Positions 5,567 through 61,645 of a DNA stretch of 64,000 nt are shown here, piece by piece. A program made the translations under genes and the position numbers. How positions within the stretch are numbered: the stretch's first letter is position 1; each line of letters begins with the position of its first letter. The stretch comes from Sphagnum magellanicum (lineage: Eukaryota; Streptophyta; Sphagnopsida; Sphagnales; Sphagnaceae). The stretch lies in NCBI GenBank assembly GCA_021904315.1, contig CM038916.1, forward strand, positions 5,793,065 to 5,857,064, in the 5' to 3' direction. The notes beneath the pieces are model-generated. The model had not been told where the DNA came from and made no database searches. It was given only the letters and a program-made list of their open reading frames with translations.

Positions 5567-6818
5567 TCAAGCTGTTGCTGGAATCATGCCAGTTTTTCGA
5601 GCATATGCAAAAATGCCTCCAGCATCAATGACTGGGCCAGCTTCCCCAATTGGCTTCAGTGCATATTGCTTCCCTGTGGTATGATTCACAAGAGAGCCAA
5701 GCTCCAAATCCACTGTCACATAGTCACCAGTTTTGTTCTCATCACAGATTCTGCCCTGTGATTCAACAGGGTAAAGCTCTCCTGTTGCAACAGAATTCCG
5801 GAAAAAGATTCTGGCATATGATTCTGCCACCACTGCTCGCACTCCAGCAGCTCCTAGTGCCACAGGTGCATGCTCCCTGGAACAACAAAAAAACCAATTC
5901 TTAGAATCAAAGCTTGTAGAGCAGAATCGGACATTGCTCCCTGGAACAAAAAAAAAACCTCTTCTAAGAATCAAAACTTTGTACAGCAGAATCATGCATG
6001 CTCCCTGGAACAAAAACAGTCAAAGCTTATACAGCAGAATCAAGCATGCTCCCTGGAACAAAAACAGTCAAAGCTTATACAGCAGAATCAAGCATGCTCC
6101 CTAGAACAAAAAAAACCTCTTCTACTAAGGATTAAAGCTTTGTAGAGCAGAAGCATGTATGCTCCATGGAACAAAAACCTCTTCTTCTTTTTCTTCTTCT
6201 TAGAATGGAAGCTTGCAGAGCACAAAAATGCTTGGCTCCCTGGACAATGGAGTACCTGGAAGATCCACAGCCAAAGTTTGCACCGCCAATCACCACTTTG
6301 TACTCAGTCTTGGACTTCCCTTCTTCGATGAAGCGACCCCACTTCGCTGGTAACCCTATCATGGCATAGCTCCCGAGCTTCTGGTACTCCTCGGGTTTGG
6401 ACGGCACGAGCGTGAGGTACTCTGCGGGGATGATTTGATCGGTGTCAATATTGTCACCAACGACAAAACACCGCCCATGGATCGTCGCTGCACTGCCACT
6501 ATTTGATCCCTCCGATTCGCCGTCTTCCACTGCCGCGGCCGCGCGCACTTGCAGCAGACCGCTCTTGCAGGAGGAGGACGGAACTGCGCTCTTTGGTCTA
6601 GCCACGAACTGCACATTGGAGCTTCTTCGCTCGCAGCCACCTGCTACTGCTACTACAACACGGTCGGCAGAAGAAGAGTTGGCAACATGGGACTTCAAAG
6701 CAGCAGCAAGTGGGACACCGCGAGAGCAAGAGAGAGTTGAGGAGGAGGAGGAGGAGGCAGGCGATACGGCTATGCCAGGGGAAGGCAGTGCTCGCATGAC
6801 TACTGTAGAGACGGCCAT
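5567..6818 (-). CDS. IPMI SSU: 3-isopropylmalate dehydratase (isomerase) small subunit, chloroplast precursor
   Basis: Small subunit of the heterodimer that isomerises 2-isopropylmalate to 3-isopropylmalate in plastid leucine synthesis; related plant subunits also serve methionine chain elongation. Exons on the minus strand are 6818-6256 and 5876-5567, giving 290 residues. Residues 1 to about 93 are rich in Ser/Ala/Val with few acids, as in a transit peptide. The swivel domain follows: VVGDNIDTDQIIPAEYL (119-135), then GGANFGCGSSREHAPVALG, the family's signature loop, then ESYARIFFRNSVATGELYP. The intron falls inside the signature loop, splitting the Arg codon of GCGSSR as AG|G. Donor is AG|GTACTC and acceptor CCAG|GGAGCA; phases agree. 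The partner large subunit is not in the window. The intron is filled with copies of its own acceptor (see the repeat entry). Confidence 0.95.
5873..6245 (-). repeat. Intronic tandem repeat carrying copies of the splice acceptor
   Basis: On the plus strand CTCCCTGGAACA or a close variant starts at 5873, 5937, about 6001, 6049, 6097, 6162 and 6236, with spacings of 64, 64, 48, 48, 65 and 74. Each unit also carries CAAAGCTT.TA.AGCAGAAT. Read on the gene's strand, the shared block is TGTTCCAG|GGAGCATG, which is the true 3' splice site plus the first bases of exon 2. The AG is kept in the copies at 5937, 6001, 6049, 6097 and 6236, and lost at 6162 (CCATGG). Confidence 0.9.
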
Positions 6819-7087
6819 GGCCGAGCAAACAACAAAACACCAAGAACAGGCGCAAAAACAAAAAGAACGTGGCAGATAACTACAGAGCTATGATAATTTG
6901 CAAGAAAGGAAAAGAGGAGGAAGAGAATGCAATGGAGATGGAGACAAAACAGAAAGACCAGCGTCACATGCGACGGAAACAGCGTGCTCTTGGAGTCGGA
7001 CGGAGATGCTCCACCTCTTCTTCTTCTTCGAGCCTAACATGGGCGTTGGGCTTCGCGCTGCAACAGCACATTACCAGTGACGATGAT

Positions 7088-7098
7088 AAACCCTAAAA
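7088..7098 (-). promoter_or_regulatory. Telo-box upstream of the isomerase gene
   Basis: AAACCCTAAAA lies 270 bases upstream of the start codon. Telo-boxes (AAACCCTA) are established promoter elements of plant housekeeping genes. The function here is inferred. Confidence 0.45.
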
Positions 7099-7154
7099 CT
7101 GAAATTTGATTTTATGGAAATTAAGTCCCATTCACAAGCAACTTGAATTTTAAA

Positions 7155-7181
7155 TTCAATTCAATTCAATTCAATTCAAGA
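7155..7181. repeat. (TTCAA)n microsatellite
   Basis: About five perfect or near-perfect TTCAA units are read directly. Confidence 0.8.
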
Positions 7182-10100
7182 TAAATCTGCTCATTCAATA
7201 TGGTGTTGGAAAAATAAAATAAAAATAAAAATAATGCCATAAATTGAAAAAAAAAATCTTTTTTAAAAAATTGGAAAAGATGCATTTTTATCAAAAAATT
7301 TACTTGGGAATCGATTAAACATATTTTAATTTGGAACTATCATCCAAAAGGATGACTTATGGAATTTAAAGTTACTCCTCCACCTAAATTAGTTTTTAAT
7401 GAATTATCATTAATGAAATTTTGGTGGCATGGAAGAAGATCTCACATCTACCATCATCTTGACACAAATGGTGAGCTTCTTTTTTTCTCTATGAGCGAAG
7501 TTGGTTGCTAGTGGTGTATAATAACTTAAGGCGACTTGTATGGTACTTTTAGGCCTCTTCTTCTTTATCTTCCTTCTTTCATAGTTGCAAAGCTAATTAT
7601 ATTTCTATCTTGAAGACTTGTTTTATTCCTTTGCATCTAATATGCTAGGGATGTTTTGTGACTAAGGAAGAAAACCTTACTATTTTGAAGTTGATTTGCA
7701 AAGTTCTCGATAATTGTTTGTCAAAGAACGTCTAATCAACACATACATGTTGAATCCATTCTTGTCGTACAAGTAATCCTTCTCTTGACATGATAGTCCT
7801 CATCAGCATCACCTCCATTCTTTTCAACAAAATTGTCAATGTTGCATAATTGAATAACACAGTTCTTTGTCTTAACTCTTCCAAAGTTTGTTTGGATGAT
7901 GTAAATGTGGTTAATTGAACAAGTTTTCATGGTTTCAATCTTGCATCAATAAAAAGCCTTGTTAGGATATATGGTTGAGTGAATACAAAACAAGATTTTA
8001 AAGGCCACAAACAAAGAAAAATATTTCTAGTTGGAGAAGTTGGATTATTGCCAAGCACTTGCAAAGTAGTAAGTTGTATAATATGACCAATCCTTGAGAT
8101 CTAACAATGAAGACCTCCTCATACTTCCTCTTCCTTGATAACATCTCCTTCTGATACACCTATCTATAGGTTTTCAAGGGTATTGTTTCGGTCTATGGGA
8201 TTGTCCATTGATTTTTAAATAGTTTGTTGCTACCTCTTATGTCTAAGAAAAAAAGTATACAAATTGTGCACACGTTCTTCATCTTTGCATGCATGCTTTT
8301 GAATGAAAGCATTTCTATCTTGGATTGGATTTTCATCACCCTAGCAATAGTCTTTAGTTTTTAGAAATCATATATCTTTAATCTTGGGTAGTATTGTGAT
8401 TATTGTACATGACTTACAACACGTATGATCAACTATTACACATTGTGCACCAATTATTACAAATTTTTGTTGTTCAACTCCTTAATTTTTTTCTGACAAT
8501 TTTTAGCATAACAAACCAATTTTGGTGGCAATATCATGTTCTTAATGTACATCTTATAGTTTATTTTTGAACTTGTAATATTTTCCCAACTATGTTTGTT
8601 TGGGTGCCAAGTTTATGTACAAACTTGTGCACATATATGTACATATGCATATATGATTGACTTTTGTTGTTTATGTATGTTGATCCATGATTACAACCTA
8701 AAAAGGATTTGAAAGTCATACCAAAATTACCACCACCTCAAGCTTTTGTTAATGAATTCAGTTTTGATTTGACTTTGAATCTTTTCTATTTTAATGTACC
8801 ATCCCAAAAAAATTCATGATGAAAAAATTTCGTGGATCAAGAGGAATAATTTGTGAACTTGTTTGCTCAAAACATTTGCTAACTTAGAATAAATCCACCC
8901 ACATCCAATATATGAACTTCTACCAATGACATCTAGAATAGAATGCAAGTAATTTTTGTTAACATGAAATATTGAAAAATATATGACAAGGATTAGTTAA
9001 ATACCATCACAAAGGTCAATCGTTATGATTTGCCAATCAAAATCAATCAATTTTTTTACCAGCCCTTTTGAAAAACATTGTATCATATGTAAATTTTAGG
9101 TCCAAACATCCAAACTCAATTTCATGTTATTTGAAATTTGAACTTCATCAAAATTATAGTTTTCATGTTATTATATAAGTATTAATTACCAACCAAGTTG
9201 CTCCCAACCATTTCCATTTGGTTATCTATGTTGAAGTTTCACAAATGTTGTTAAGATAATTACAATTTTAGAACTAGGAACACACAAAGTCTTATAACAC
9301 ATAAGAAAAGTTACCTATCATGTGCAATAAATGGAATATGGTCAAATTATTTGATCATACATTACACCTTGCTTTTGGCTTGATTTTTTTTTGATGATGT
9401 GTTTTGAATGTGCTACACTTGTGAAGTTTGACCAATAAATTTGGTGTTCCTATGGATTGTAAGTAAACATTTCCAATGTGCTAGTGGATGTAGAAGGCTA
9501 TTAAAGCAAACAATGAATGAGCTTGAAACATAAAGTAAGATCTCATATACAAAAACATGTGGTTGCACCATAATTTATACTTTAATGTGGCAACCATAAA
9601 CCTCTTCCTCAAGAAGAGGAAAGCACCTTACAAACCCTAAAAGCCTTCTACTAGAAATGCAAAACCCTTATGCTTAAGGTATTGTTTTCATGAAGGTAGC
9701 CTTGGTTTAGGCTTCAAAAGAGTCATACTTTACAATTTTAAAAATTAAAAAAAAAATCGAATCATATGTTATAATTTCTTTTATGGTTGATTCCCAACAC
9801 AAAATGGCATCTTGTGTTCAATTTGAAATTTAGTTTAAATTACCAATGTTTGAACGAAAAAATTAACCTACCATTGTTACTATAATCCAAATCTTCCATC
9901 AAATCCGAATTTCCTTGGGCCTTTTTTGAAGGTTTATTTTGGATTCCTAACAACAAACACAAAAAGGACCATCAAGGAACAAAATTTTATACATGATTTG
10001 CATGCTACCTATAACTACTTGTTGCCCAAATCAAATCACAAACTCCATTATATATCCTTTCATTTTGGTACACATGGTTTTTGCCTATATCAAATGACAA

Positions 10101-10214
10101 ACTCCATTGTCTAAATTTTCATCTTTGTACACTTAATTGAAAGACAACTTACATTACACCTTTTTGGTGCAACTATTTACAATTGCAAATTGAAAACCAT
10201 ATATAAGGCCCAGG
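7182..10214. other. AT-rich gene-free DNA
   Basis: No spliced or unspliced coding region is supported. Open frames are under 65 codons and compositionally AT-driven. No transposon protein is recognised. Confidence 0.55.
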
Positions 10215-10550
10215 GAAGGACACTATTCTTTGAATTTACAAAATACATGAAAAAAAAGTAAAACCCTACATATTGGTTGTTGGATAAGAATTATAATTTA
10301 ATTAGTTTTATAATATAATTATTTTCATTATCAATATATAATTAGTATAAATTATTCATTGATCTTCAATATTAGGAACAAATAGAAAAATAAAACATAT
10401 GTAATAAAAAATTTAAGTATTAATTGTTAGTAGATTCAATTAATAGGTTAGCAAGTGAATTATTATTAAAAATTTGAATTAGTAATATTAAGTTCAATAG
10501 GTTAGTAAGTGAATTAATATTAATAAAAAAAATTGATAATCAAATTTGTT
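10215..10550. repeat. Dispersed repeat, copy A (LTR-like)
   Basis: Blocks GGACACTATTC, a CAAAATA.ATGA run, TTGTTGGATAAGAATTATAA and AAGTATTAATTGTTAGTAGA occur in the same order and spacing as in copy B (36030-36300). The pair is strongly diverged. The TGTTGGATAAG start resembles an LTR edge, but no target-site duplication or internal retroelement domain is seen. Within copy A, AATAGGTTAG.AAGTGAATTA is itself duplicated (about 10441 and 10497). Confidence 0.55.
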
Positions 10551-13500
10551 AAGTGAATGTGAAGGAATGTGAATGGAAGGGTCCTTCCACACCATTGACA
10601 ATTGAATCATTTTGAAAAAAATATATTAAATAAATGGATATTTTGTTCTACCATCTCCCAATTATCTAGTTGGAGGATATGTTAAATAGATATATGATAT
10701 GTCAATATAATAATAGTTTTATCACATGATCTAACCATGTTCAATTGAATCCCCGTCACTCCTCACAATTTCAAATATTAAAATATTAATATGTGCATAT
10801 TAAAAACATTTAGGTAATAATAGGATGGGAAAAATGGTTCCTTCACATAACACCTTCCAAACAATGCATTGTTTGACACAAGTAATGTAAAATTTTATCA
10901 AATTGTAATGTCCCCCCTTAGGCGTAAGATTTCAAAACTCCCAATATCAATAGCTTGCATGGGGTAACACAATTAAAATGAGGGATGTTTGAAAAGAAAA
11001 TCATGGCAAAGGTAAATTGTATTAACAGGGCCATCAACTAATTAAAAATGTGTTAACTTATCTAATTGTCAATATTGCAAGAATTTTCCAAACACATGAA
11101 ATTGGTTATGTTCAATTATGCATATGATTAGTGGACCTTAGGGAATTTCCTTTTCTTCTAAAAGAGTTGGCTTGAATTTACACCATTAAATTGACTCTTC
11201 AAACACCACTACAATATTTCACAATTGTGCCAATGAAAAATGGATAACCCCACACCATAATGTTTGTTTTCGCACTTGTCTTTCCCAATAATTCCTCTAG
11301 CCATCCATTTCATCCAACTAAACACAATAGAAATATTGTCACACAATCATTTTTTTTCTCATCATCCATATTGCTCTTAAGTTCTGTTGTTGCAATAATT
11401 GTGATTTTAAGTCCCACCACAACAATAATCAAATGTCCACAAACATCATCATCACTACATCCAGTCATTGCTTCATAGATGTGAATTTCACCTTAGATCT
11501 AGCAAATGTACCCATAAATTAAATACTTCCAAAACAAATCTCACATCTATTAGGTTAGTAACATATCACAAAATACAAAAACTTATAAAAAAATGATATA
11601 TGTTCCCCAACAACATTAGGCCTCTATATACTTTGAGAAATAAATTTTAAATCTATTGGGTTAACAACAATATGCCAAATATAAGCCCCAAAAAAACAAA
11701 AACGAAACTTATTAAAACCAACAACACCATGTCTTTACAAACATAAAACATTGGGACTTTGAAAAAAAATTTAAATATCATATATCAATAACATACCACA
11801 TACTTAAAATGTTTGTCAATTTGCTTCCATGTCCTTATTGATCAAACAATTTCAATTTATCATCAAGATTATTTTTTTTGGTAAGATATTATGCCTTTTC
11901 ATCCTTCCCCCACCTATCACATCTTTCTTTCACCATTTCTTTTACCTCCATCTTATTCGAGCTATCCATTCCTTCATCTCACATGTCCTTTAAACCTTTC
12001 TTGTGTAGGGTGCAATATTGCGCCAACTACCAAATTAGTTGTCCATTGGCAATCTACATCTACCATCATTGATCATTCCATGATCAATCTTTTATTAAAA
12101 AGAAAATGTAGAGTGTGGTCTTTATGTGAGGTAAACCCCTAAGATGAAAACATCGCCAAAATAAAGGGTATGCCTAAGGTGGTAGCTAAAGGGGTGTCCC
12201 AAATTTCAATGATGTTTTATAGGTTTACCCTACATTTTCAAGCATAGGTCCAATGGATAGGGCATTAGAAAAAAGGTATATGTTATGCCTTAAGATTTGA
12301 GCTTGTAGTTCAATTTAAACAAAATTAAATCCTCCACACATTGACATAGTTTTGTCTATTTACAATAGAAAGATATGCAAAACACATGTGAAAAAATGAA
12401 ATGTTTGTTCGACATGAATTATGCACATTGATTAACCATTTCATAATCACCATTGTTGGGTATGAAATTGTCACATCCAACTTGAAAAAAAAATGTTAAA
12501 CATATGAATTACTACAAAACATTCTATACAATGATACATCAATGGATAATTATAAAATATGTTACAACCTAAATGATTAAAAACATCAAACTTGGAAGTT
12601 CCAAAAGAAAATAATTGAAATCTATTTATATTTATTCGTATCAATCTATTTTGGTAAATTTTAATGGCCTAGTTGAAATTATGGTCAATTTTTGTGAATG
12701 CCTCTTGAAGTGTTTTCTCCTTTTTTAACCTATGATTTTATAGAAAAATACTAATGCCATGTTCAACTATACAACTTGTGAAATGCCACCCATTGGTTCA
12801 ACTCATGACTTCACAAAATAAAAGCCTATATCCAAGTATGTGCATCACTAATATATGAGAAACCAAAGGTGTACCTAGATAGTAAACCTTCTTGTCACAT
12901 GTATTTGCAAACATCTTCAAAAGTCAATTAAAGTAGGTACTAGTTTTTTCAATTATTTAATCTCTAGTCACCTGAATTGAGGTTATGTGGGTAGAAAATT
13001 GACCAAGGAACCTTTAAAAAACCATTGATGAAATCAAACTTGGGTGCAAAATTAAAAGTTGCATTTGATCTATTTTGAGGATGTACCAAATAATGACTTT
13101 CAATCTAAACATTCATTTATAGTTTGGTTAAGTTTTTCATGTGTGAAATGTTTTATGATAATCGATTCTTGCAATGTGTAATGGGTTGGTTTAAACTTGC
13201 ACATGTTAAAAACCTACACACCCAAGCATAGAATCCATTCATGACATTTCCCTATAAACGAATGTAGGGGTTAAATGCTTGTACTCTAATTTAAATATCT
13301 TGCCTCAACCATTACTTGCATTGGCATTTTAAAATCTTTGAAGAATCGAGAAGTAAAGGTTGTTATTCAACAAACAATGAAAGCTTACTACCACTTCACT
13401 TACCAAAACAAGAATGATAGAAATTGAAAGCTTCCATTTATCCTTGAACACAATCAATCTTCCACATGTTCTATGACAAGATCAAGTAGCCTTGCTCACC

Positions 13501-14035: not shown

Positions 14036-14042
14036 GATTTCA

Positions 14043-14044
<2 letters not shown>

Positions 14045-14079
<35 letters not shown>
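14045..14079. repeat. (AT)n microsatellite
   Basis: A perfect or near-perfect AT dinucleotide run of about 35 bases. Confidence 0.9.
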
Positions 14080-14082
<3 letters not shown>

Positions 14083-15487: not shown

Positions 15488-18069
15488 ATGGCAGCCTCTC
15501 TTCGCCTGCCATCAACATCTCTTTTGGATGTCAGAAGACCTGGTACACAACTTTGTAGCTCGCGATTTGGTCAACATTTGCAGCAGCTACAACAACAACA
15601 ACAACAACAACAAGTTTCGTCTCGGTTTCGCTCCTGTGCAGCTTCTCTTTCTGGTCAGTATATGAATTGTCATCGTCGTCTTTTTTTTTTTTCTTTCTGA
15701 TTTCCACCTCCTCATTGCTAACCTTTTTCTTCGAGGAAGTATAGAACTTTTTCTTGTTAGGAAAGATGACCGGCTTCGCTCCCGTGCTTCTCTTTCTGGT
15801 CATCGTATTGTCATCCTCGTCTTTTTCTTTTTCCACCTCCTCATCATTAACCTTTTTCTTCGAGGAAGTCTCGAATTTTTCCTTGTAGGAAAGATGGCCG
15901 GTTTCGCTCCCGTGCTTCTCTTTCTGGTCATCGTATTGTCATCGTCGTCTTTTTCTGTTTCCACCTCCTCATTGCTAACCATTTTCTTCGAGGAAGTGTT
16001 GAATTTTTTCTTGTAGGAAGATGGCCGGTTTCGCTCCCGTGCTTCTCTTTCTGGTCATCGTCGTCTTTTTCTGTTTCCACCTCCTCATTGCTAACCTTTT
16101 TCTTTGAGGAATTGGAATTTTTCTTGTAGGAAAGATGATAGTATTTTGGTTTTCGCAAGGAAAAACAAAAATAAGCCGTGCTCCTTCTTCTCCTTCTTCT
16201 TCACATTGTTTTCGTTTTTGGTCTGGATTCGGTGCTTGCAACTACCTGCATCCGTTTGTAAAATCCGTGAGTGGAGATGGTCCGGGTTTGAAACTGGTGG
16301 TTGTAGTCACGCTTGTCACTCAAGAGAGCTGGCGGGCTAGTTTTCCTTGTTTACAATTCGCAGACGGCGCTCTCGTATTCTTCTTTGGTTCAATACCTTT
16401 TCTAGAATGAAAAAAAAACAGAGATAACGTCAGTGGTTCTTCACTATACTAGAAACACTCAGAATTGTCAGTCGACTTTCAAGTCCGGATGATGACATTT
16501 CTGGTCCCAATTTTCAAAGGCAAGATTATGAGAATTTCTTAGCCAGGACTTCCTAGTTCAACAAGCTTTGCAGATTTGTGCAAGAATCGAGAAGCTCTAG
16601 CCCAATCTTAAACAAGGAACTTATATCAGAAGAACAAAGTTCAAATGGACTTCCTCACTAAGGGTAAACAAGCTTTCAAAAAAGTTCTCTGTTGCGCAGA
16701 TGTGCAATCTGTTTGGATGGCTATGCATCAGAAACTCATAGGTCTTTTTGTTATGCACCTTCTTTCAGATCTCTCGGGACAAAATATCACACTCAAAACC
16801 ATCAAAACCATGTCAAACATATGTTGAAAACAATATTCTCAAAATCTTTTGTGGTGTTTTGGTGTTGTATATTCATTTCTTGAACTTCAGTTTTCTGATT
16901 GACAAATGCAGTGTGTGCTCAAAGGCAGTTGTCAAAGAGAATGTGGCCAGCAAGAGTAATCAAAGTGAAAGCCCAGACGGAGCAGAGCACTGAGCAGGGG
17001 TCAACAGCAGCAGATGATGAGGTCTGTGAGCTGGTGAATGGAACTGATGTGGAGTTGGGTGAAGGCTCTGAATCTTTCCAAGCCTACTTCATTCAGGCCA
17101 TCAAAAACAACAATGGTGCAGGAGTCCTTCTGTTAACAGATGTCTATGGCCACCAACACAGTCCAACTCGAGATTTTGTGTACCGTCTTGCCTGCTTTGG
17201 CTACAAGTGAGCCCTGCTGGAGATTTCTTCTCTGTTCCTCTTGGTTCAGTTATGCCTTTCAAGAGCTTCAGGAAACATCTGGTTACTATGCTATTTACTA
17301 TATTAGACAATGCTATTTTTTCAGTTCAAAGCCTGGCAATTGTTAGTACATAAGACTTGAGCTCAAAATATGGTTACTTATTATCAAACATGCTGGCAGG
17401 AGATGAAAAGTAACCTGATCTGTTTTGTATACTGCACTTGGCTACTATCATGCTCACTTCAAATAAATTTGCAGTCAAGCTTTGCACAACCCAACTGTTG
17501 ATATGAGTATTTATGAGAATTTTCCTGGCTGTGTGTTTTGCAGTGTACTTGTTCCAGACCTCTTCCGTGGAAATCCATGGAGCAAACAGAAATCCAAAGA
17601 ACAGTTTGAAGAGTGGCGTGCAACTCATCCTCCAGACAGACTTGAAAATGACATAGACACATCGGCAGATTGGTTATCCCATGCACTATTTGAAGAAGGT
17701 GCAGTAACTAAGGGGCTGGGAATTGTAGGATTTTGCTTTGGAGGTGGTAAGGTGATTCAGGCTTTGGCAAGAGATACAAAAGGCAGATATACAACAGGAG
17801 TAACTTTCTATGGTACTAGGTTTGACCCTGCACTGGCAGTGCAGATAAAAGTGCCATTGCTTCTCATAACAGGAGATAAAGACCCATTATCACCGGTAGA
17901 TGTTGTTCGTCAGGTGGAAAGCCAAGTGAAGGGCGCACAAGCTCGTGTGTACAAGGGGCGTGGCCATGGATTTGTCCACATGCCTGAGAGTGTTGAAGAT
18001 GATGAAGATGCAGAAGATGCCTTTGAAGCAACGCGGAACTGGCTGCATGACCACTTACTTCCACAATAG
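15488..18069 (+). CDS. Dienelactone hydrolase family protein (carboxymethylenebutenolidase-like), likely chloroplast
   Basis: An alpha/beta hydrolase of the DLH family; the physiological substrate in plants is not established. Exons 15488-15653, 16912-17206 and 17544-18069 give 328 residues; the phases (G|TG for Val, AA|T for Asn) agree. The first ~70 residues look like a transit peptide (MAASLRLPSTSLL...) interrupted by a CAA-coded Gln run (about residues 37-44). The catalytic set is visible: GFCFGGG with Cys218, GDKDP with probable Asp267, and GRGHGF with His295. LLLTDVYG precedes the TRDF.YRLA segment that is typical of the family, with Asp where bacterial DLH has Glu. VLVPDLFRGNPW opens exon 3. 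A shorter N-terminus beginning at a later Met is possible but would drop the putative transit peptide. Confidence 0.93.
15587..15613 (+). repeat. (CAA)n run encoding polyglutamine
   Basis: Eight to nine CAA/CAG codons lie in exon 1 of the hydrolase, within the predicted transit-peptide region. Confidence 0.85.
15626..16140 (+). repeat. Tandem repeat spanning the exon 1/intron 1 donor site
   Basis: GGTTTCGCTCC.GTGC...TTCTCTTTCTGGTCA recurs at about 15626, 15774, 15902 and 16029 (spacings 148, 128, 127). Each unit continues with CATCGTCGTCTTTTTCT, CCACCTCCTCATTGCTAACC and CTTCGAGGAAGT, and the later units end with AGGAA(A)GATGGCC. The first copy contains the end of exon 1 and the working donor CTG|GTCAGT; later copies read CTGGTCATCG and lack the donor consensus. 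Later copies also lack three bases (AGC) present in the exon copy. Confidence 0.88.
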
Positions 18070-19840: not shown

Positions 19841-19844
19841 ATTG

Positions 19845-20110
19845 GTAAGTAGATACTTCCAGAGGCATGCCTAAACCCTAAACCCAAAACCCAATATCAT
19901 CACTAAGTCTTCCCAATACATAAAGGCTCATGACAATGGAAACTATGTCCAAATGATCATAGTGGTTCTGATTCTAACTGTTGGGAAGTAGGTACTTTCA
20001 GAGGCATGCCTAAACCCTAAACCCTAAACCTAACATCATCACTAAGTCTTCCCAAATGCATAAAGGCTCAAAACAACAGAAACTATTTCCAAATGATCAT
20101 GTGGTACAGT
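19845..20110. repeat. Two-copy direct repeat of about 139 bp with telomere-like motifs
   Basis: GAGGCATGCCTAAACCCTAA starts at 19862 and 20001. Both copies continue through ATCATCACTAAGTCTTCCCA, CATAAAGGCTCA and TTCCAAATGATCAT (or close variants). A partial earlier copy (CATCATCACCAATAAGTCTT) lies at about 19733. Each unit carries one or two AAACCCTAA motifs. The repeat ends about 180 bases upstream of the WD40 gene's start. Confidence 0.88.
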
Positions 20111-24934: not shown

Positions 24935-26541
24935 TTAGTAGTAGAAGTATCTAGTATAATCAGGACCAAGGGCAAATGTTACAGGATAGAGGTCTTCCTT
25001 CGGCTCTTCAGGCTTCTTTGCCTCCACTTTCTCTTGTGCTTTGGGCTCCTCCTCCTTCTTTTCCTGTTTTTCGCCTTCTGTTTTTGGAGCCTCCTCTTCT
25101 TTCTTTTCTTCCTTAGGTTCTTCTTTTTTCTCCTCCTTTGTTCCTTCTGTCTTCTCCTCTTCCAGCTCGGCCTCTTCCTTCTCTTCTTCTTTCTTCTCCT
25201 CTGCCTTTGGATCCTGTGAGACATCATCAGTGATCAGTAAACACATCAGGATCCTCTCTGAACTTCCAGTAGAAGTCAGTCCTTTATGGGCTGTTTTCAC
25301 TGTTTCTCAATTCAACTGTTTCTTGTGGGTTCTACTCCTATCTGATGATGGTCTTTGTGCAAGCATGAGGCAAGACAATATTAGTATTCTCTGTTTTGAT
25401 TTTGACTCTAAAAAACATTTATAGCCAAATCCTGAGAGTTTTTTCAGACAATTCATACCTCTTTTGCCTCCTCTTTGTTTTCTTCTGCCTTAGGGGCTTC
25501 CTCCTCCTTCTCTTGTGTCTTCTCTTCAGCTTTTGGGGCCTCCTCCTCCTCCTCCTCCTTTTTCTCTCCCTTCTTTTCCTCAGGTGTCTCTTTCTTTTCT
25601 TCTTCAGCAGCACCCTTCTCCTCCTTTTTCTCTTTTGGGTTCTCCTCTGCCTTCTCCTCTTTTTTGTCTTGTGTTTTCTCGTCTTTCAATTCCTGCTTAG
25701 GCTCTTCCTCCTTCTTAGGCTCCTCTGGCCAAAATGATGTAAGCTTTCCAGATTTGGAAACTCGTTTGAATACATCATTTGGCTGCACGGCACCTGTGAC
25801 TGTCACTTTCTGTGCAGGAAAATCAATTGTGTACGAGATTACTCCTGCCAGAAAGGTAATGCTGTGAATTTGATGACCAAGGATCGTCTTAACAATAATC
25901 TTGTATCCAGGGTCAGTGAATCCACCGATCAAACCATTTTACAGCACAGTTCTTAGACTGTTCTGTTCCTTGATCAGTTTATAGAGAGAGAGAGAGGGAG
26001 GTTGGGAATTGATGTAATCTAATGTGAGAGAGTACCCGGTATTCGTTTGACAGCACGCTTGACAGAGCCTGCACACCCTTCACAGTGCATTATCACCTTC
26101 AGGATCACTGTTTGCACCTCAACTATCTGCACAAGAGATGTATGATCACCACCCACCCACCCATGAGACTGTTTATCTGCAGTGATCAAATCAATTCTGG
26201 TGGAAACAATTCTGGAGACTGAAGATGGAGTATGATGTTACATGAAGTTTCACTCTAGTAGCAGCAGCTGGTTAGCCAGCGACTTTTTTTCCATTCAAAA
26301 TTGCAACTTGGGTATGTGATTCCTAGACCCTGCAGGCACTCTTCCATTCAAGATTGCAACTTTGGTATGTGATTCCTGGACACTGCAGGCACATTTTCAT
26401 TCAAGATTGCAACTTGGGTATGTGATTCCTGGACATTGGAGGCAAAGAAAAATTGTTGATGATGATGTCCAAACTTCAAACAAGTCTAAAAACTGGAAAG
26501 GAGAGAAAGAGACACACTTGAGCAGCAGCAGCAGCAGCCAT
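24935..26541 (-). CDS. Heavy-metal-associated (HMA) domain plant protein with Lys/Glu-rich tail
   Basis: Minus-strand exons 26126-26036, 25844-25459 and 25213-24935 are firm; a first exon 26541-26518 (MAAAAAAQ) is inferred from an ATG and a CAA|GTGTGT donor whose phase fits. Total 259 residues. The HMA fold reads VQTVILKVIMHCEGCAGSVK with the metal-binding MxCxxC (Met21, Cys23, Cys26), then IDFPAQKVTVTGAVQPNDVF. From about residue 75 the protein is almost all Lys/Glu/Pro/Ala, split by an intron, and ends LGPDYTRYFYY. In plants this architecture belongs to the HIPP/HPP metallochaperone-like families, which bind Cu, Zn or Cd and act in metal handling and stress. No C-terminal CaaX is present, so isoprenylation is not predicted, unlike typical HIPPs. 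Confidence 0.86.
26289..26442. repeat. Three-copy 53-bp repeat in intron 1 of the HMA gene
   Basis: TTGCAACTTGGGTATGTGAT then TCCTGGACACTGCAGGCA recur at about 26301, 26354 and 26407. They lie between the inferred first exon and the HMA exon. No clear splice-site copy was found in this array. A short (CCCA)n run lies at about 26150. Confidence 0.85.
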
Positions 26542-28484: not shown

Positions 28485-29345
28485 AGCACATTGCAGATCA
28501 CATCGTATTTAATTCGTTGCTATTGTTTAGTGTTTGCTTTTGAAGGAGCTCTTTTTGGGTGGGTATAAGTAGAGGTGAAAAAACAAAAGTTGCAAATCAT
28601 ATCGTATTTAATTCGTTGCTATTGTTTAGTGTTTGCTTGAAGGAGCTCTTTTTGGGTGGGTATAAATAGAGGTGAAAAATCAAAAGTTGCAAATCATATC
28701 ATATTTAATTCGTTGCTATTGTTTAGTGTTTGCTTGAAGGAACTTTTTTTGGGTGTTTACTCTTCTTGGGTGGGTATAATTAGAGGTGAAAAATTAAAAG
28801 TTGTATCTCACGATCGTATTTAATTCGTTGCTATTGTTTAGTGTTTGCCTAAAGGAACTTTCTTTTGGGTGTGTATTCTTTTTGGGTGGGTATAATTAGA
28901 GGTGAAAAATCAAAAATTGTAGATCATGATCGTATTTAATTCATTGCTATTGTTTAGTGTTTGCTTGAAGGAACTTTTTTTTTGGGTGTTTACTCTTCTT
29001 GGGTGGGTATAATTAGAGTGAGAAATTAAAAGTTGTAGATCATGATCGTATTTCATTCGTTGCTATTGTTTAGTGTTTGCCTGAAGGAACTTTCTTTTGG
29101 GTGTGTATTCTTTTTGGGTGGGTATAATTAGAGGTGAAAAATCAAAAATTGTAGATCATGATTGTATTTAATTCATTGCTATAGTTTAGTGTTTGCTTGA
29201 AGGAGCTCTTTTTGGGTGCATATAAATAGAGATGAAAAATCAAAAGTTGCAAATCATTTCATATTTAATTTGTTGCTATTGCTTAATTTTTGCTTCAAGG
29301 AACTTTTTTTGGGTGGGTATAGATAGAGCTAAAGAATTGAAGGTA
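28485..29345. repeat. Eight-copy tandem array with two unit lengths (about 97 and 116 bp)
   Basis: TTGCTATTGTTTAGTGTTTG (or a one-base variant) starts near 28517, 28616, 28713, 28828, 28944, 29060, 29176 and 29273, giving spacings 99, 97, 115, 116, 116, 116 and 97. Long units carry about 19 extra bases (near GGGTGT.TA.TCTT). Each unit contains GGTATAA.TAGAG.TGAAAAA, a TATA-like run, and a GATCATGATCGTATTT or similar block. No coding potential. Confidence 0.93.
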
Positions 29346-49885: not shown

Positions 49886-49889
49886 TTAT

Positions 49890-53900: not shown

Positions 53901-54345
53901 GTTCAGTAAGCCTCGCTTGTCAAGCTGTGCAACTTCCTTCAACTTTTGCTGAGACAACAATTGCACCCCCACCCCAACAAGAACAAGAACAAGAAGAAGA
54001 TTGGTGACTGAAGAAAACCCAATTATTGCTATGAAAGAAAGACAGAAAACAATAAGAGATTTGATGAGTGGGGTATGTATGTACATGTGTACATACATCA
54101 TGAGCAAGTGCGGAAGCAGCAGCAGCATGAGCTGCAGCTTGTCCCCGTTCGAACTGGCTAGCCATTTCACGCACCGAGAGCCGGCGCTGAAACAAATCGG
54201 CTTTGGCCTTCCCCACCACTTCCCGTGCCGCACTCATCTGCTCATCTCCAGTAGCACTCGTATTATGCACATCCATCACATCAGCTGCCACCCCTTCCTC
54301 CTCCTGTTGCTGCTTCACCATACTGTTGCGTGATGATGCACTCAT
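50975..54345 (-). CDS. SCAB1: SCAB1-like plant actin-binding and bundling protein
   Basis: SCAB1 binds, bundles and stabilises actin filaments and regulates stomatal closure in Arabidopsis; family architecture is actin-binding region, coiled coils, and a fused Ig-PH domain. Minus-strand exons: 54345-54097, 53948-53820, 53622-53530, 53318-53178, 52928-52860, 52722-52639, 52458-52278, 52095-51976, 51703-51657, 51466-51326, 51160-50975. Phases agree and give 479 residues (Arabidopsis about 496). Blocks: RRLSVREMASQFERG; GRVAGRNKDDISDAL; long coiled coil through DEERAKAQLEIESAHAATLR and VKEARRITMLHAPSK (residues ~84-255); ERLGACLAITPC.HNAPEL and IQWYSIS (Ig part); MRIKLSKGR, SSAMQLCGGRGGGDAAA and ERDRNAAIMLARRFAFDCNV (PH part). 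The tail ends CLLLRLHFAN. The exon 10 acceptor (GGGAG|TTGAAG) is the least certain junction. Confidence 0.94.
52994..53037. repeat. (CTT)n microsatellite in a SCAB intron
   Basis: A run of about 14 CTT triplets lies in the intron between exons 4 and 5. On the gene's strand it reads GAA. Confidence 0.92.
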
Positions 54346-54845
54346 CTCGTGGTGATCAAACCATTACCCAAAACTCCTCACAAACTCATACAACCCAAAG
54401 ATTTCAGCACAAATTCCAATGTTTGTGATGACCAGCGTCCTGTCTGTGCGATCTGTGTGTCTCTGTGCTCTTGGAGATAACCAGAGTCCTGGAGACTTGC
54501 AAACTGCTAGGCAACTGGGGGCCCGAAAGACCTTGAAGGAGCTCGACGGAACACAAAACTGAAGAATTGGGTATTGATTCCTATCCTCTTGAGACACAAA
54601 CAATCTCCTCATACAGACAGAGCTCATGAGAACCAACCAAGCCTGGGGTCAGTTTTCTCCTCCTCTTGATCCTCCAGCTTCTACTGCTGATCCTACTGCT
54701 GCTGCTGCTGCATGTGGATTTCCCAAAACAAAATCCATCAATCAAGCTCACTCACAACTGACTCTTTCTACAAAACCAGAAGAAGAATCAGACCAACAAT
54801 AAAGCTAAATTACAGCAGCAACAAATACAAACAAAATTCCAAACT
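54346..54845. other. 5' flank of the SCAB gene
   Basis: Probable 5' untranslated region and promoter on the minus strand. GCTGCTGCTGCTG-type runs lie at about 54695-54712. No other gene. Confidence 0.4.
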
Positions 54846-54849
54846 TTTG

Positions 54850-55095
54850 GTCTACCTACTTGGAAAGATTCAATCCACCTTGCACATACAACAAAAACAG
54901 ACAAGCGAGCAAGCAAGCAAACAAACAAACAAAAATCAATATCCCAAAACTAGCACCCAACAATCCCTTCTTCTTACCTACCAAGAAAAATTCAATCCAC
55001 CTCACACACGCAACAACATACAAGCAAACAAACATACAAAACCCAAAACAAGTACCTACAAATCCCTTCTGCTTCTTCTTCTTCTTACCTACCTA

Positions 55096-55126
<31 letters not shown>

Positions 55127-55365
55127 CTACCTAGGAAAATTCAAGCCACCTCGCATCCACAACCAACAACATACAAGAAACCCAAGAAAAACACAAAACC
55201 CAAAACAAGTAGTTAGCAATCCCGTCTTCTTACCTACATAGAAAAATTCAATCTACCTCATACATACACACACACACACATGCACACATGCACACAACAA
55301 CATCATCATCCAAGCAAGCAAGCAAACAAACAAATAAAACCCAAAAAAAAGGTACCTTACCAATC
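54850..55365 (-). repeat. Four-copy diverged tandem repeat upstream of SCAB with donor-like motifs
   Basis: TTCAATCCACC or a close variant occurs near 54869, 54991, 55140 and 55247, each followed by a CA-rich stretch (ACACAACAACATACAAGCAA) and CAAATCCCTTCT, with CTTCTTCTTACCTACCT in between. On the SCAB strand the last block reads AGGTAGGTAAGAAGAAG, which contains the splice-donor consensus AG|GTAAGA, repeated in several units. An intron in the 5' untranslated region is therefore possible. Confidence 0.7.
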
Positions 55366-55545
55366 CCTTCTTTCTTCTTCTTTTTTGTTTTCTTCTTGTT
55401 TTTACTTCTTCAATTCTCCATTTTGAAAGCTCATCCTATCTCTCTATACACTAGGTAATTCACAACGCATCATCATCAACACCATCACAACGCAACAACA
55501 CCATGCAAATCCTTTGCAAATCCTTGAAAGAGAAAACAAGCCCCC

Positions 55546-55564
55546 AAAAAAAAAAAAAAAAAAA
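55546..55564. repeat. Poly-A tract
   Basis: A run of about 18 A, flanked by two copies of CATGCAAA.TC(T/C)TTG.AA (about 55502 and 55566); a third CATGCAAATCCTTGGAA lies near 55616. Confidence 0.8.
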
Positions 55565-58010
55565 CCATGCAAAATCTTTGAAAAAGAGAGTAAGAAAAAG
55601 GCCAACAAAGTTCTCCATGCAAATCCTTGGAAGAGAAAAAGTCCAAGAGAGAACCCAAAAGAAGAACCAGCTACAGTGGTCAGGAGGGCGAGGACTCAGT
55701 CAGTCTGACTGGTCTGCGCTGCTCTGGTCAGGTCAGGTTAGTCAGGGAGAAAGAGGGTTATTAATTAGTTAGGGGGAAGGGTGGGTTGGTTTAATTAATT
55801 AACTAATTAACTAACTAATTAATTAATTAATTAAGAAAGTGGGTTACTAACTTGTGCCTAAGTTGTCATTCATTACCGTTAATGTTGAGTTCAGAGTTTA
55901 ATTTAAGTGCCCAAAATTGGCATCTTTTGTTTGGTCTGTGACCCTAATAACTCTCCACCCCCCCCAAAGTTTAGTGTTTAGTGCCTGCTAATTACCATTA
56001 ACAAACTGGGGACCTTGTCATTAGTCATTTCCTACCGTTTAATGTGTTGGGTTCACAGCTTCCTAGGTACCTAATTAGGTAAGGTAAGTAAGGTAGGTAA
56101 GTAGGTAGGTCAGTAGGTAGGTAGGCCTCCTCTTTGTTTGTCTGTCTGTCTGTCTGTCAGTCACCCTAACTCCAGTTTGTCAGGAGTTAACTCTTAACTG
56201 CTGGGCTTGGTTTGGTTTGGTTTACCCTTTTCTAAAGGGGGCCTAACTTTTTTGAACTGCTAAGGCTTGGGTTGGTTTTTAAAATTTTTAAAAAAAAAAC
56301 TTTTTAGACTTGGGATGGTTTTTTTTTATTTTTAAAAAAACTTTTTAAGGCTTGGGTTGGTTTTTTAAAAATTCAAAAAAAAAGTTTTTTTTTAAGGCTT
56401 GGCTTTGGTTGTTTTCAAGTGTTTGTTTGTCTGTTCATTCACACATAGTCACACTTGTTGTTTGCTTACTAATGTTATCCCTTGTTTCTCGACATGTTTC
56501 AATGAATAGTAAGTCTACATGGCATGTGTGACACATTTACAATTACCTTCTTGTCAGATTTGATGGAAATTAATTTTTAAAACCATATATGAAAAGAATT
56601 CTCAGAAATTTGCGTGGGTATTTTGATGAGTTTGATAGAAGTTTGTAATCCATTTAAATGAGTCCTTTCAAAAAATTTAAATGAGAATAATGAAAATGTG
56701 AAAATCGATCCATGTTTGTTTAATTACATTTTACAGGGGAAAAAAAAATGTTTAAGTCATCTAACAAGTTCACAATACAAGTTGCCTTGTCTCCTCCAAC
56801 CTTGCACATGCATAGAGCATCGATGCTTAGTTATGGTCCACATTTCATAGGAGGAGAAAGGAACCTATCTACTAAGGAAGGTAGGTTGTTCGTGTGGTAT
56901 GTTTTGTTTGTTGGCTTTGCCTACAAAGGCAAGGATATTGTGTTTAGATTCATTATAGAGTATAGTAGCTTGAGTGATTTTGGCCCCTAGGTAATAGGTT
57001 TATTTTTATATGAAGATTTTTGAAAGATGATATTTTGGCTTGTGTTGAAACTTGAGATTAGTTACAGAGTTATAATATCTTGAAGGATTTTGGTTTCTTA
57101 TAGAGGATTTTTTGCAGATTATATTTTTGCATGGTGAAATATTTGAGTTTCCATAATTCTTCTTTTGCCTTACAATATTTTTTTAATGTAAATGGCAAGG
57201 CCACTATGTGACACACCCCTAAGTTGTTTGTCATGTTAAGATTTCCCAAACTAAGGTGTGTGGAGCTATGCTTTTGTTGGTGTTTGGAAAACCTTTGATG
57301 AGTAGGAATGCATTCAAGAGGTTTTGTAGTGTTTTCAATGATTTTACCTCATGAGGTGAGATTCAAAAGCATCTCCTGTAAACAATCAGTGCACTAGTGG
57401 TTTGCAACAGGACTTAACAGCAGATTTTGGGTTCTATTTTGTATTTCTTACCACATGTTGTTACTTCATTCATCACCTCATTGTCCTAGCTTAAGAGCTT
57501 GTAATTGTCCCTAGAGTAGCCACAGACTGAGCTCATCATTGCAGCTTAAGAATTTCAGAATTTGCAGGCATTAGAGCTAAATATATGATTTTTTTCTGTC
57601 AGCAACAAGGAGACCTGTGTGATATGTGCAGTGATTTGTGTCTGAAAATTGCCTGTGATTTTGGATTTAACATATGATTCCTTCTCTAGACAACAATGAC
57701 ATTGACAAATATGAGAGAAGAAGTTCAGCAATTTGCATCTGAAAAACTTGCATGCAAATTCAGTGATTAACATCTGTTTCTTCAACAAAGAGAGAATTGC
57801 ATAAAAAAAGTTATGACTGCAACAAAAAACTTCAATTGTGCATAAACTGTGACTACAGAACATTTTGATTTTGCATGATTCTCTGGAGATAGACGTTCTT
57901 TCTGAGAGATAGAGAGAGAGAGAGAGGGAGAGAGGGAGGACAAGGAAGCAGAAAGTTGGAGGATTTCTCACTGTTTGTTTTGGATGATAGATTAGCTTTC
58001 CACAAGGAGA
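55565..58010. other. Spacer between the divergent SCAB and small membrane protein genes
   Basis: No gene is supported. Simple repeats include (TTAA)n at about 55789-55834, (AGGT)n at about 56080-56127, (TGTC)n at about 56138-56160, and a three- to four-copy repeat of CTTGGGTTGGTTTTT with poly-A/T at about 56262-56410. The 334-codon minus-strand frame at 57555-58559 is antisense to the downstream gene and low-complexity. Confidence 0.5.
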
Positions 58011-58230
58011 TTTAGGGTTTGAACTCTTCTTCTGCAGTGTAGAGCGCTTGTTTGATTGTTGCTTTGTTGCTTGTTTGCTTGGATTCCGCGCACGCAAACA
58101 TCCACGCCCTCTGTTTTCTGCAAGGAGAATTTTCTTTTTTCTTTTGCCGGATCCGTTGATCGAGGAGTCGCATTCGTGGTCTTGTGAGAGAGAGAGATAG
58201 AGTGTGTGTTTTCGTGTGGGTTTAGGGTTT
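58011..58230 (+). promoter_or_regulatory. Two telo-boxes in the leader of the small membrane protein gene
   Basis: TTTAGGGTTT occurs at 58011-58020 and 58221-58230, the second 13 bases before the start codon. A GA-rich tract (about 57906-57935) lies upstream. Confidence 0.5.
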
Positions 58231-58242
58231 TGGAAGGGTTTG

Positions 58243-59286
58243 ATGGCGCAGCAGCAGCAGCAGAAACCGGGGGAGAAATCCATGTCTGCTTCTTCACCCA
58301 GTGAAGCTCCTCCAACGGCTGCTACCTCCTCACGAGTTGGTGCTGCACAAGAGTCGGGTTGGGCTAGACCTCCATCTCGGATGCAACAGATTTTGTGGAG
58401 TGGAGATAGACGTGCTGTTTTCATCGGCGTGTTGTCTGTCTTTGCGCTCTCTTCTATTCCCTGGCTGTACTTCACTAGAAGTAAGTTTTTTTCCCCTCTT
58501 TCCCTCTCCTCCATCTCTTCCTCTTCTTCTTCTCTGTTGGACATGTTGACATGCATCATGCAGCTTGGAGTTTGCGAAAAACAAAAATAATTCTGGTTTT
58601 GGAAGCTTAGAGAACCATCCCTCCATGGCTCGACCAGCTCACTGACACCATCTCCAACTTTCTTTACCGTCCTTTGTTGATTATGTCAGATCTATTGCTT
58701 CCATTGTTATGGTGTGCATGGATTTTGGTAGCAAAAAATCTGCCTGCCCCCTGTGTTCATGCAACCATTGCCATATCCTTCTGATGCTTTGCACATGAGG
58801 GTTGTGGGATGATTGCATCCTACTCTGAGGAGCTTTGCAGGGAAGCTGCAGTCTCTGTATGTGCTTGCAGTACAAGAAATTTGGTTTTTGAGAGATTCTG
58901 AAGTAATATAGTTGCTCATCATGGATTTGCAATAGCTGGAATGTATGCATCTTGTGATATCTCAGGCTTCTGAAGGGAAAAAACAAAAGCTCCCATATCT
59001 ATAGCCAGACATATGGCTGTCTGAATTTGATTTTAGTCTCTTTGAACTGGATTGTAAGCTTTGGCTCCTTTCCAGTTATTGATCCAAGCACATATTGTGT
59101 GGGTGCCACCGCTGCTGATTGATTGTTTCCATTCTCAGCCAATTCTCAACACTCTACTGATGTCTTTTTGAACCTGAATGACATGCAGATGCAAAACATG
59201 ACTCACATGCAGACTACATGGATAGAGCAGAAAAAGCACGTCGTGAGCGCTTGTCTACATCACCATCAACTTCTACTACATCATGA
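58243..59286 (+). CDS. Small single-pass membrane protein, unrecognised family
   Basis: Exons 58243-58480 and 59213-59286 give 103 residues; donor GAA|GTAAGT and acceptor CAG|ACTACA join in phase to code Asn80. The protein starts MAQQQQQKPGEKSM (CAG-coded Gln run), has a Ser/Ala/Pro-rich region, then WARPPSRMQQILWSGDRRA before one hydrophobic segment (about residues 61-76, VFIGVLSVFALSSIPWLYF) and a basic/acidic tail YMDRAEKARRERLSTSPSTS. Arg/Asp before the helix and RAEKARRERL after it suggest a conserved organelle or ER membrane protein. I do not recognise the family and give no function. The second exon is short, so its boundary depends on phase and on the coding look of the tail. Confidence 0.7.
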
Positions 59287-60660
59287 TTATCATTGTGAAT
59301 TTGGTGGCTTTTTGATAGCATTTCTGTTTTGAGCAATTTTGCACTTGTGTGTAATACAAGTCAGCGATGTAGAAGAGGGCCAAAATAAGAATGATAAAAA
59401 ATCTGTGGGTGTGTGAATTGAGTGAGTCAGTACATTTTCAGATACCTATTATGTAGGCCTGTGTCATCATAATAAGAAGTCAAGGATAGTATTGCAATGT
59501 AGAAAGGCATCTGTGAATCAAGATATGTGCAAAACTGTGCTGCACAGAATTTAGGGGTGACAAGAGTGATCCATGCAAGTTGGGCATGATCATGTCTCCA
59601 GTTGCCCTCTAGTTCTGATGTGCAACGGAGTCACCATTGTATCCTCCTACTGCAACCATCTTGGATCAAATGCAAAGCAGGCTTCAGATTTAGATTTCAC
59701 ATCACAGTGATGCTTGGGATTCTACAATGCGTGTTCTTTGATCAGATCAGGATAATAATAAATGTTTAGTTACCCATGAATGTCTCAAGAAGAAGGCCAA
59801 GGAGGTCCTTTTTTCTGAATCCCACATGTTTCTTTTGTAGTATAGTGGTGGTGGAGTCATGGCTTTTGCATCTCCTGCACAAGACTGTGATTACTGTGTG
59901 ATTAAAACACCTTGCTTTTCCGACACTGAAACATGGAAGAAGAAAACCAGAAGATGATGACAAGCACATTCAAGAGTGCAATTTGACAGTACTATTCATC
60001 ATCCTCACCTTGCTAGTCATCCTCATCCTGCAAAAGTCTTGAGAAACTTTACATTTTTTGTTTTACACCTCCCTTCAAAGATCAATCTCCTTTGCACAAA
60101 ACACAAATTCCCTGGTTGACAACAGCATGGAATAAATTGTTCGGGAGATGGGACATGAGAGCCAAAACCTTGCCAAAAGCATTGAAGAAGGTATTGATTT
60201 GTCTTTGCAACCTAGTATGGAGAATCGGGAGGAGGAGAATATAAACATTTCTGATTGTGTTGCAACCCTAAAATAGTACCTCTGGAAAATCATGAATGAG
60301 AATGGTGAACTTGCAAACAACATGAGCATTTCAAGAGTTGCAACAATATCTGGGTAATGGATTTGCGATTACCGAGCAAGCTTGATGTGGAGCTTCCGAG
60401 ACACAATTAGGGTTTTCCTTGCCCTCCTTCGTTGCATTCACAATGGCGCAGCATAGAATGAACACTTTGTGCGGGAAGCGAAGAGTAGTTGCACTGTGCG
60501 TGTGCGCGCGCGCGCGCCCGGGGAGCAAATAGGGTTTGCAGCAGACTATGGAATCTGGGAAGAAGAGACGGTGATGATGATGATGCTCGCGCGACAAGCA
60601 CACACAATTGCACAACTCTTTGTGTTGTTTGAGGTTGCAGGGTGGAGGATTTGGGTGGTG
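59287..60660. other. Spacer with 3' flank and GC simple repeat
   Basis: No further coding region is supported. A (CG)n run lies at about 60504-60517. Short frames on both strands near 60407-60670 lack any domain; a GC-rich ATGGCGCAGC near 60442 could be an upstream start, without support. Confidence 0.45.
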
Positions 60661-60663
60661 GGA

Positions 60664-60675
60664 TTTTAGGGTTTA
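60664..60675 (+). promoter_or_regulatory. Telo-box before the GVLKKKKK gene
   Basis: TTTTAGGGTTTA lies 7 bases upstream of the start codon at 60682. A second motif (TTAGGGTTTT) lies near 60408. Confidence 0.5.
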
Positions 60676-60681
60676 GAGAAA

Positions 60682-61645
60682 ATGGAGATGGGGGAAGGAA
60701 GAGATGGTCGAGTGTTCACTGGAAAAGCTGCTGGCGTGTTGAAGAAGAAAAAGAAAATGCATGAATTGGAGCAAGTACGGGAGCTTCCTCCGCCTCCCCT
60801 TCCTCAAATCATCCCTCCGCGCTTCGGTGTCCTCAAGAAAAAGAAGAAGAAGGCGATACCTGAAATGGAAGAGGCAGAGGAGGATTTCGCATTTAGAGCA
60901 CTTTCTCCTCTTCCTCTTCCTCCTCCGCCTGCTCCTCCTCTTCGTGTTGCTGGTGTCTTGAAAAAGAAGAAAGTGAACAGACCTGTGCAGTTGCAGTCTT
61001 TTGTCAGAGGTACGAATTGCAGAGCCGAGCAAATCTGGTGTTCCACCTCCAATATTTTCTAGCCCTCTTTGTGATGTTGTTCTCACTTGTTGTAGGTCAG
61101 AGGACGTTTTCTTGTTGGAATTCATGGGGCACATGCAGGATCCATCTTTTTTTCTTGGTGGAATTCATGGGGCACATGCAGGATCCATTTTTTTCCTTGG
61201 TGGAAATCATGGGGCACATGCATATCCATTTTTTTTTCTTGGTGGAATTCATGGGGTACGTGCGTATTGATCTTTTTTTCTTGTTGGAAATTATGGGGCA
61301 CATGAAGATCCCGTCTTTTTTGTTGGATAAAATTCAGGGGCTGAGTTTGAAGGTGAGGGAATCAGTCGGGAGCATCCTGTTGCTGCAATAGTTCCATCCA
61401 AGCTTGTGAAGCAGGAACCTCGAATCAAAGGTGTCCTGAAGAGAAAGGCTATTATTCCTCGGGTAATAATACCTAAAATGGAGGGTAAATATTTTTTTTT
61501 GAAAAAGAAAAAAGAAAAATACTCATTAATATATAAAACCAAAGCAAAGGAAATTATCTATTGGGGTAGAAAGTGCAATATAATATTTGGAAAAATATCA
61601 CAAGTCCAACTAAACCAAAATAAGCTTCACGTTGTAAGCCATTAA
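60682..61645 (+). CDS. Unrecognised basic protein with repeated GVLKKKKK motif; 3' part uncertain
   Basis: Exon 1 60682-61009 and exon 2 from 61338 join in phase (G|GG) across a GT-AG intron. GVLKKKKK or variants occur four times: AGVLKKKKKMHELEQ, FGVLKKKKKKAIPEMEE, AGVLKKKKVNRPV and, in exon 2, KGVLKRKAIIPR. Proline runs (RELPPPPLPQIIPPR, LPLPPPPAPPLR) and an acidic stretch separate them. The Lys runs resemble nuclear localisation or nucleic-acid contact, which is only a guess. After PKMEG at about 61484 there is a possible donor (G|GTAAAT); the in-frame remainder to 61645 looks like intron, so the gene may continue downstream, or this may be a pseudogene. No family is recognised. Confidence 0.5.
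61113..61340 (+). repeat. Five-copy 42-bp repeat leading into a splice acceptor
   Basis: ATGGGG in GG(A)ATTCATGGGGCACATG occurs at 61124, 61167, 61209, 61251 and 61293 (spacings 43, 42, 42, 42), each preceded by a poly-T tract and CTTG.TGGA. The sixth position, 43 bases on (61336), is the intron's own acceptor, AAATTCAG|GGGCTGAG, also after a T tract. The upstream copies read CATGGGG where the acceptor reads CAGGGG, so their AG is absent. Confidence 0.88.

Follow-up and report, generated by a model that had tools for sequence, protein, structure and literature searches.

Probable mirage-type minisatellites across exon-intron junctions in two genes of Sphagnum magellanicum

Can the introns of a plant genome grow by tandem duplication of their own splice junctions, and is a process directed at junctions needed to account for it? 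The question is raised by a stretch of 64,000 nt from Sphagnum magellanicum (hereafter the window), which corresponds to C10:5793065-5857064, where C10 is contig CM038916.1 of an assembly with 438,994,042 bases in 31 contigs. Within the window, tandem arrays extend across an exon-intron junction in a LeuD-family gene and in a dienelactone hydrolase (DLH) gene. These two arrays are probably minisatellites of the type named "mirages" in amphioxus, produced by ordinary tandem duplication across the junction.

The other genes used in the analysis are a WD40 gene, which we take to be WDR83, an HMA-domain gene, SCAB, whose plant-specific domains identify the window as nuclear DNA of a plant, and a gene located at about 61 kb (the 61-kb gene). 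Rfam returned no matches at gathering scores. The reading frame, the conserved protein and the GT-AG rule served to place the exon borders by hand, which gave 45 junction sites and 21 complete introns, and the splice forms discussed here are conceptual, as read from the sequence of one assembly. Acceptors were scored with a matrix trained on 20 acceptors from other genes in the window. The coordinates of the main features are collected in Table 1.

Anatomy of the LeuD and DLH arrays

Conceptual splicing of the LeuD gene produces an intact protein of 290 aa with an Aconitase_C match (2e-18); the LeuD/DmdB family model scores above its cut-off, and the leud equivalog model below. Joining the two exons yields GCGSSREHAP, continuous with the small subunit in PDB 3vba, which lends good support to the acceptor at 5877. 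The intron opens with 10 nt that precede units of 74, 65, 48, 48, 64 and 64 nt, the last of which enters the real acceptor, and the units contain a T-rich tract, an acceptor motif (its AG is lost in one) and the start of exon 2. Motifs of acceptor plus exon that resemble TTCCAGGGAGCATGCA occur on the minus strand at 6245 (10/16 positions identical), 6171 (14/16, AG lost), 6106 (14/16), 6058 (15/16), 6010 (16/16), 5946 (12/16) and 5882 (16/16, the real acceptor), and all seven copies fit the consensus (T/G)TC(C/T)A(G/T)GGAGC. Identity with exon 2 extends over 5 nt in the first of them and over at most 10 nt in the best one.

The real LeuD acceptor scores 10.4, and those upstream 8.5 (6101), 10.9 (6053), 10.9 (6005) and 11.1 (5941), followed by a fifth with 4.0 (6240) and a sixth without AG (6166). 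Splicing at any of these six upstream sites would lead to a stop 4-13 residues past CGSS. When the array was compared with the rest of the window, the other matches were AAG-rich runs only, and an exact search with a 24-base LeuD unit gave 0 matches each in viral and genome contig collections, from which the records of the plant's own genome were possibly excluded.

In the DLH gene, the spliced protein of which has a DLH domain match of 2.6e-28, a stretch at 15623-15657 that comprises the final 31 nt of exon 1 and the donor GTCA has further copies, differing by 3 nt, at 15771, 15899 and 16026, at spacings of 148, 128 and 127 nt. The donor copies within the intron score 1.9, and the real donor 3.2. 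A donor shifted into a later copy leads to a stop at codon 71; the exon ends used for this check lay 3 nt beyond the GT copies, and the stop is upstream of them regardless. The DLH units also contain the acceptor-like TTTTTCTTGTAG/GAA, with scores of 2.5, 7.2, 9.2 and 10.3. Such acceptor-like sites lie at 15888, 16016 and 16129, the first two upstream of a copied donor, and from this arrangement of motifs the units could serve as mini-exons. Searches of the own genome reported no second copy of either LeuD or DLH; hence, the state that preceded the arrays is not readable from a paralogue.

Duplication of exon edges was assessed by searching the intron of each junction for the sequence around that junction (16 nt on the exon side plus 8 nt on the intron side), with a floor P of 0.005. 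Two of the 42 junctions (21 introns) reached this floor, namely the LeuD acceptor and the DLH intron-1 donor, and the next value was 0.075. The exon-edge duplications of LeuD and DLH exceed chance. Intron lengthening by local duplication, one of the explanations offered in the original prediction on this locus, is supported in both genes in the form of tandem duplication across the junction.

Table 1. Location of the LeuD, DLH, 61-kb gene and SCAB-upstream features within the window
Feature	Positions	Strand	Remarks
LeuD exon 2 (isopropylmalate dehydratase small subunit family)	5567..5876	-	first nucleotides part of repeat unit
LeuD intron, 379 nt, GT-AG, phase 2, almost all array	5877..6255	-	hand-set borders
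LeuD junction-spanning array, six 48-74 nt units ahead of the real acceptor	5868..6250	-	Tandem Repeats Finder (TRF) span 5869-6112, hand-extended
LeuD exon 1, coding part	6256..6818	-	spliced frame
DLH exon 1, coding part	15488..15653	+	last 31 nt in repeat unit
DLH junction-spanning array, ~128-nt unit (31 nt of exon end, donor and intron sequence), four copies including the exon's own	15623..16137	+	TRF span 15694-16137, hand-extended
DLH intron 1, 1258 nt	15654..16911	+	hand-set borders
Irregular direct repeats with four AGGTAAGA, upstream of SCAB	54850..55350	-	motif search and self-comparison
Segment common to the window and contig C2	59193..61463	+	blastn, 97.3% over 2282 columns, 5 gap openings
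61-kb gene, truncated copy, exon 1, coding part	60682..61009	+	fuller copy at C2:23132931-23133711
61-kb gene, 42-nt array adjoining the assumed acceptor	61101..61341	+	same array, no gaps, in the C2 copy

If the two arrays arose by ordinary duplication, a local tandem duplication would have doubled a segment that straddled an exon-intron junction. Splicing would still use one outermost copy of the junction and remove the surplus copies as intron, so that the gene would keep working; the duplication would be tolerated because the surplus junction copies become intron. Later duplication between the copies, that is, ordinary minisatellite turnover, would then lengthen the array. When splicing is done conceptually at the last acceptor of LeuD and at the first donor of DLH, the proteins have the expected conserved domains. 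The sequence shows the anatomy of the arrays, the intact spliced frames and the lack of an excess of arrays at junctions of the window (see below); from these we infer that the duplications are largely neutral, that slippage or unequal exchange caused them, and that splicing chooses the outermost junction.

Known boundary minisatellites and the origin of the LeuD intron

According to the original prediction, arrays of this kind had no established name, but the class is already known in print, as "mirage" minisatellites (PMC3087553, PMC3902484), as exon-intron internal tandem repeats (PMC2812944) and as intron gain by tandem duplication, the last reviewed in PMC3443670; here and below, the statements on the literature follow excerpts of the papers cited. 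In amphioxus, where they have been proposed to give rise to introns, mirages consist of exon-intron boundaries duplicated in tandem in the manner of a minisatellite, and their hosts are Adh3, the globins BflGb6 and BflGb9, and PGBD5 (PMC3087553, PMC3902484). They occur at the 5' or 3' boundary, with units of 10-160 bp and AG/GT in many copies, and the repeats of LeuD and DLH likewise cover the boundary. Unlike the amphioxus cases, the arrays described here reside in plant genes, and that of LeuD amounts to about the whole intron; furthermore, the amphioxus genes were reported to show length polymorphism and to splice normally, whereas LeuD and DLH are known here from the DNA of one assembly. 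We do not claim that mirages were unreported in plants.

Human paralogues offer a second parallel, as internal tandem repeats at their exon-intron boundaries, with an average unit of 30 bp, form introns (PMC2812944). Here too, minisatellite expansion alters the boundaries, but the human repeats belong to primate segmental duplications and come with transcript evidence. Tandem duplication as a route to intron gain is exemplified by a boundary-crossing case in a potato RNA-dependent RNA polymerase gene and by multiple 24-bp duplications in fission yeasts (PMC4974935). In the potato gene, as in the window, the duplication that crosses the boundary supplies the splice signals, and the acceptor and polypyrimidine tract are inherited too; the difference is that potato has two copies and relatives without the intron, while LeuD is seen in one genome. 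Introner elements also make introns out of repeats, although they occupy many genes (PMC3443670).

A rival explanation, which we regard as possible but rather doubtful, is that the LeuD intron, which splits GCGSSR/EHAP, was itself born by tandem duplication at the coding proto-splice site CCAG/G and then grew as a minisatellite. The duplication might have given two copies of TTCCAGGGAGC, the stretch between them turning into intron and later multiplying, and the present intron would, tentatively, represent a stage with many copies, in which several acceptors are about equally strong but a working enzyme results from the last one only. An intron of 16 nt is too short for splicing, and this is the length left when all but one copy are removed from the LeuD intron; therefore, array and intron may have arisen together. 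Furthermore, the first copy begins 10 nt past the first base of the donor, the end of exon 1 (TTCCAG) recurs exactly in 4 of the 7 motif copies, the acceptor edge of the intron units matches flanking exon sequence, and the genome search reported no second LeuD copy. One unit also resembles exon 1 at 14/16 positions (GTACAAAGTTTTGATT), located 48 nt from the exon end in exon 1 versus 44 nt from the acceptor in the unit by hand count, but this similarity of the spacer to exon 1 was noticed post hoc, and only one of the four copies tested has it (u4, P 0.01; u0, P 0.03 with a different, gapped alignment; u1, P 0.62; u5, P 0.32). It was rejected as proof of origin, several copies and words having been tried. 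Against birth with the array stands the possible alternative that an older LeuD intron of ~80 nt was engulfed by it. For Arabidopsis IPMI, one figure legend mentions an intron, its place not stated (PMC3946710), and a second paper gave no passage on intron structure (PMC7308503).

Array placement, chance and the 61-kb gene

The original prediction had also read the recurrence of junction arrays as the sign of a shared process directed at junctions, such as R-loops, nicks or slippage at splice sites. This explanation now appears very improbable. It is true that one window holds two junction-spanning arrays and one abutting array, and that tandem repeats of plants and algae lie more often near intron ends (PMC3887541). 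However, with few arrays to count, the overlap of arrays and junctions was not above random placement in any test made in the window, which is the outcome that the original prediction had named as its refutation.

With circular shifts of unpadded TRF arrays of period at least 30, one array (LeuD) lay on a junction under stricter scoring versus 1.6 expected (P 0.80), and three (LeuD, an HMA-domain coding repeat and the 61-kb array) under laxer scoring versus 3.1 expected (P 0.62). Unpadded arrays with periods of at least 30 or at least 40 gave P 0.52-0.80, and all twelve settings together P 0.34-0.87 for arrays and 0.58-0.92 for junctions. The TRF spans leave out the exon part of the DLH array. 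When the spans were extended by hand, which was done after seeing the data, and the SCAB array was included, there were 16 non-coding arrays, of which 3 covered a junction versus 1.72 expected (P 0.24, or P 0.26 with independent placement in the window). Three arrays placed at random inside gene spans all fell on junctions in 56% of trials. Shifted arrays can land on exons, where selection would often bar them, and this is avoided by a test within introns: with one unit placed at random in each collapsed intron, spanning in 3/3 had P 0.12 and in at least two P 0.58, while 3/3 spanning or ending at most 10 nt from the junction had P 0.18. Overlap with a junction is likely because the introns are short; with the values of LeuD, a 64-nt unit placed at random in an 80-nt intron overlaps a junction in 88% of cases.

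Introns elsewhere in the same genome were sampled from kinesin genes, where 61 of the 172 reported exon matches gave 22 merged segments and 30 introns, three of them doubtful with negative junction scores. The sample is biased toward conserved motor-domain introns and introns within the 1.5-kb flanks. None of the 30 introns contains a TRF array with a unit of at least 30 nt, and a P of 0.005 was reached at 1 of 60 junctions, where there is no array, as chance allows. Thus, as far as this small and biased sample goes, the introns of this genome do not generally carry such arrays. Kinesin loci on different contigs (e.g., C1, C2 and C5) form sets of two or three with the same matched profile ranges, which suggests gene or genome duplications that are usable for intron comparison.

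Arrays anchored on splice junctions had been predicted in three unrelated genes out of seven. Those of LeuD and DLH indeed span the junction, whereas that of the 61-kb gene abuts it, because its intron has no duplicate of the sequence on the exon side (acceptor test P 0.27). The assumed acceptor is also less sure, since two AGs inside the array (61138 and 61181) score 10.0 and outdo its 4.7. The product of this gene gave no Pfam family above the cut-off. In the search of the own genome, both exons were also found at C2:23132931-23133711, and the C2 and C10 copies share 98.96% identity over 863 ungapped bases, with the array included and of equal length. The match ends inside exon 2 at window position 61463, so that, compared with C2, the copy in the window is truncated; the match's left end at 59193 is the edge of the C2 stretch compared. 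Judged by the alignment, the segment 59193-61463 is a recent segmental duplicate of the C2 locus (~97% identical), copied as DNA since the intron is retained, and the array probably moved along with the duplication. The claim of three unrelated genes was therefore rejected, as the third host is a truncated duplicate, and what stands of it is two junction-spanning arrays and one abutting array. The donor of the 61-kb gene that had been set at 61484 lies past the end of the C2 homology and is probably not real; it is still included in the 45 junction sites of the overlap tests and in the donor matrix of the kinesin intron calling, and is outside the 42 junctions of the exon-edge test and the splice-scoring matrices for window sites.

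Some of these results weigh against ordinary mirage-type duplication in LeuD and DLH. The 61-kb array, the sole one comparable between two genomic copies, shows no change in length, hence no sign of the turnover that the mechanism assumes. With duplicated exon edges in 2 of 21 window introns versus arrays in 0 of 30 kinesin introns, the window could be unusual. In addition, the overlap tests have low power, being limited to three arrays at the scale of a window, and both splice forms and variation in copy number are unseen in a single assembly of DNA. A further proposal, that the number of LeuD repeats sets the enzyme output through decoy acceptors leading to premature stops and nonsense-mediated decay, is very improbable, for although four decoys (8.5-11.1) score near the real acceptor and each would give a stop soon after the junction, that stop comes along with the unit itself, and the amphioxus genes are reported to splice normally in spite of their copies (PMC3087553, PMC3902484).

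Other arrays in the window and significance

The merged TRF arrays of the window with a period of at least 30 number 17 under stricter and 33 under laxer scoring. The repeats upstream of SCAB, predicted as a fourth case, were not reported by TRF as one array. On the minus strand, which is the sense of SCAB, AGGTAAGA occurs four times (54972, 55083, 55121 and 55228), with repeat offsets of ~107-157 bp and more, and each copy has a donor score of 6.2, equal to the median of the training donors (6.2), which makes them candidate donors. The predicted repetition of AGGTAAGA is present, within irregular direct repeats, but nothing shows a junction there. A TAGG array at 56064-56123 was rejected as the AGGTAAGA array since AGGTAAGA sits at 54972-55235.

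A 53-bp array on the minus strand at 26289-26444, just upstream of the HMA-domain gene, has units with the acceptor-like TGCCTGCAG and TCCAG, and from these motifs it could be a case of a 5' untranslated region intron. Within the same gene, a coding Glu/Lys-rich repeat (24993-25215) reaches the acceptor 25214/25213 under laxer TRF scoring, and no duplicate of the exon edge at this acceptor occurs in the intron (P 0.44). The remaining arrays include a large one of 838 bp at 28491-29328, with periods of 97-232 bp in a gene-poor stretch, and a two-copy 139-bp repeat with a CCTAAAC run at 19842-20105, upstream of the WD40 gene.

Most recently gained introns are without a traceable source sequence (excerpt of PMC4974935), and a plant intron that is visibly built of junction copies, such as that of LeuD, would therefore be a useful test case. 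Mirage-type arrays connect the turnover of minisatellites with the origin and growth of introns.

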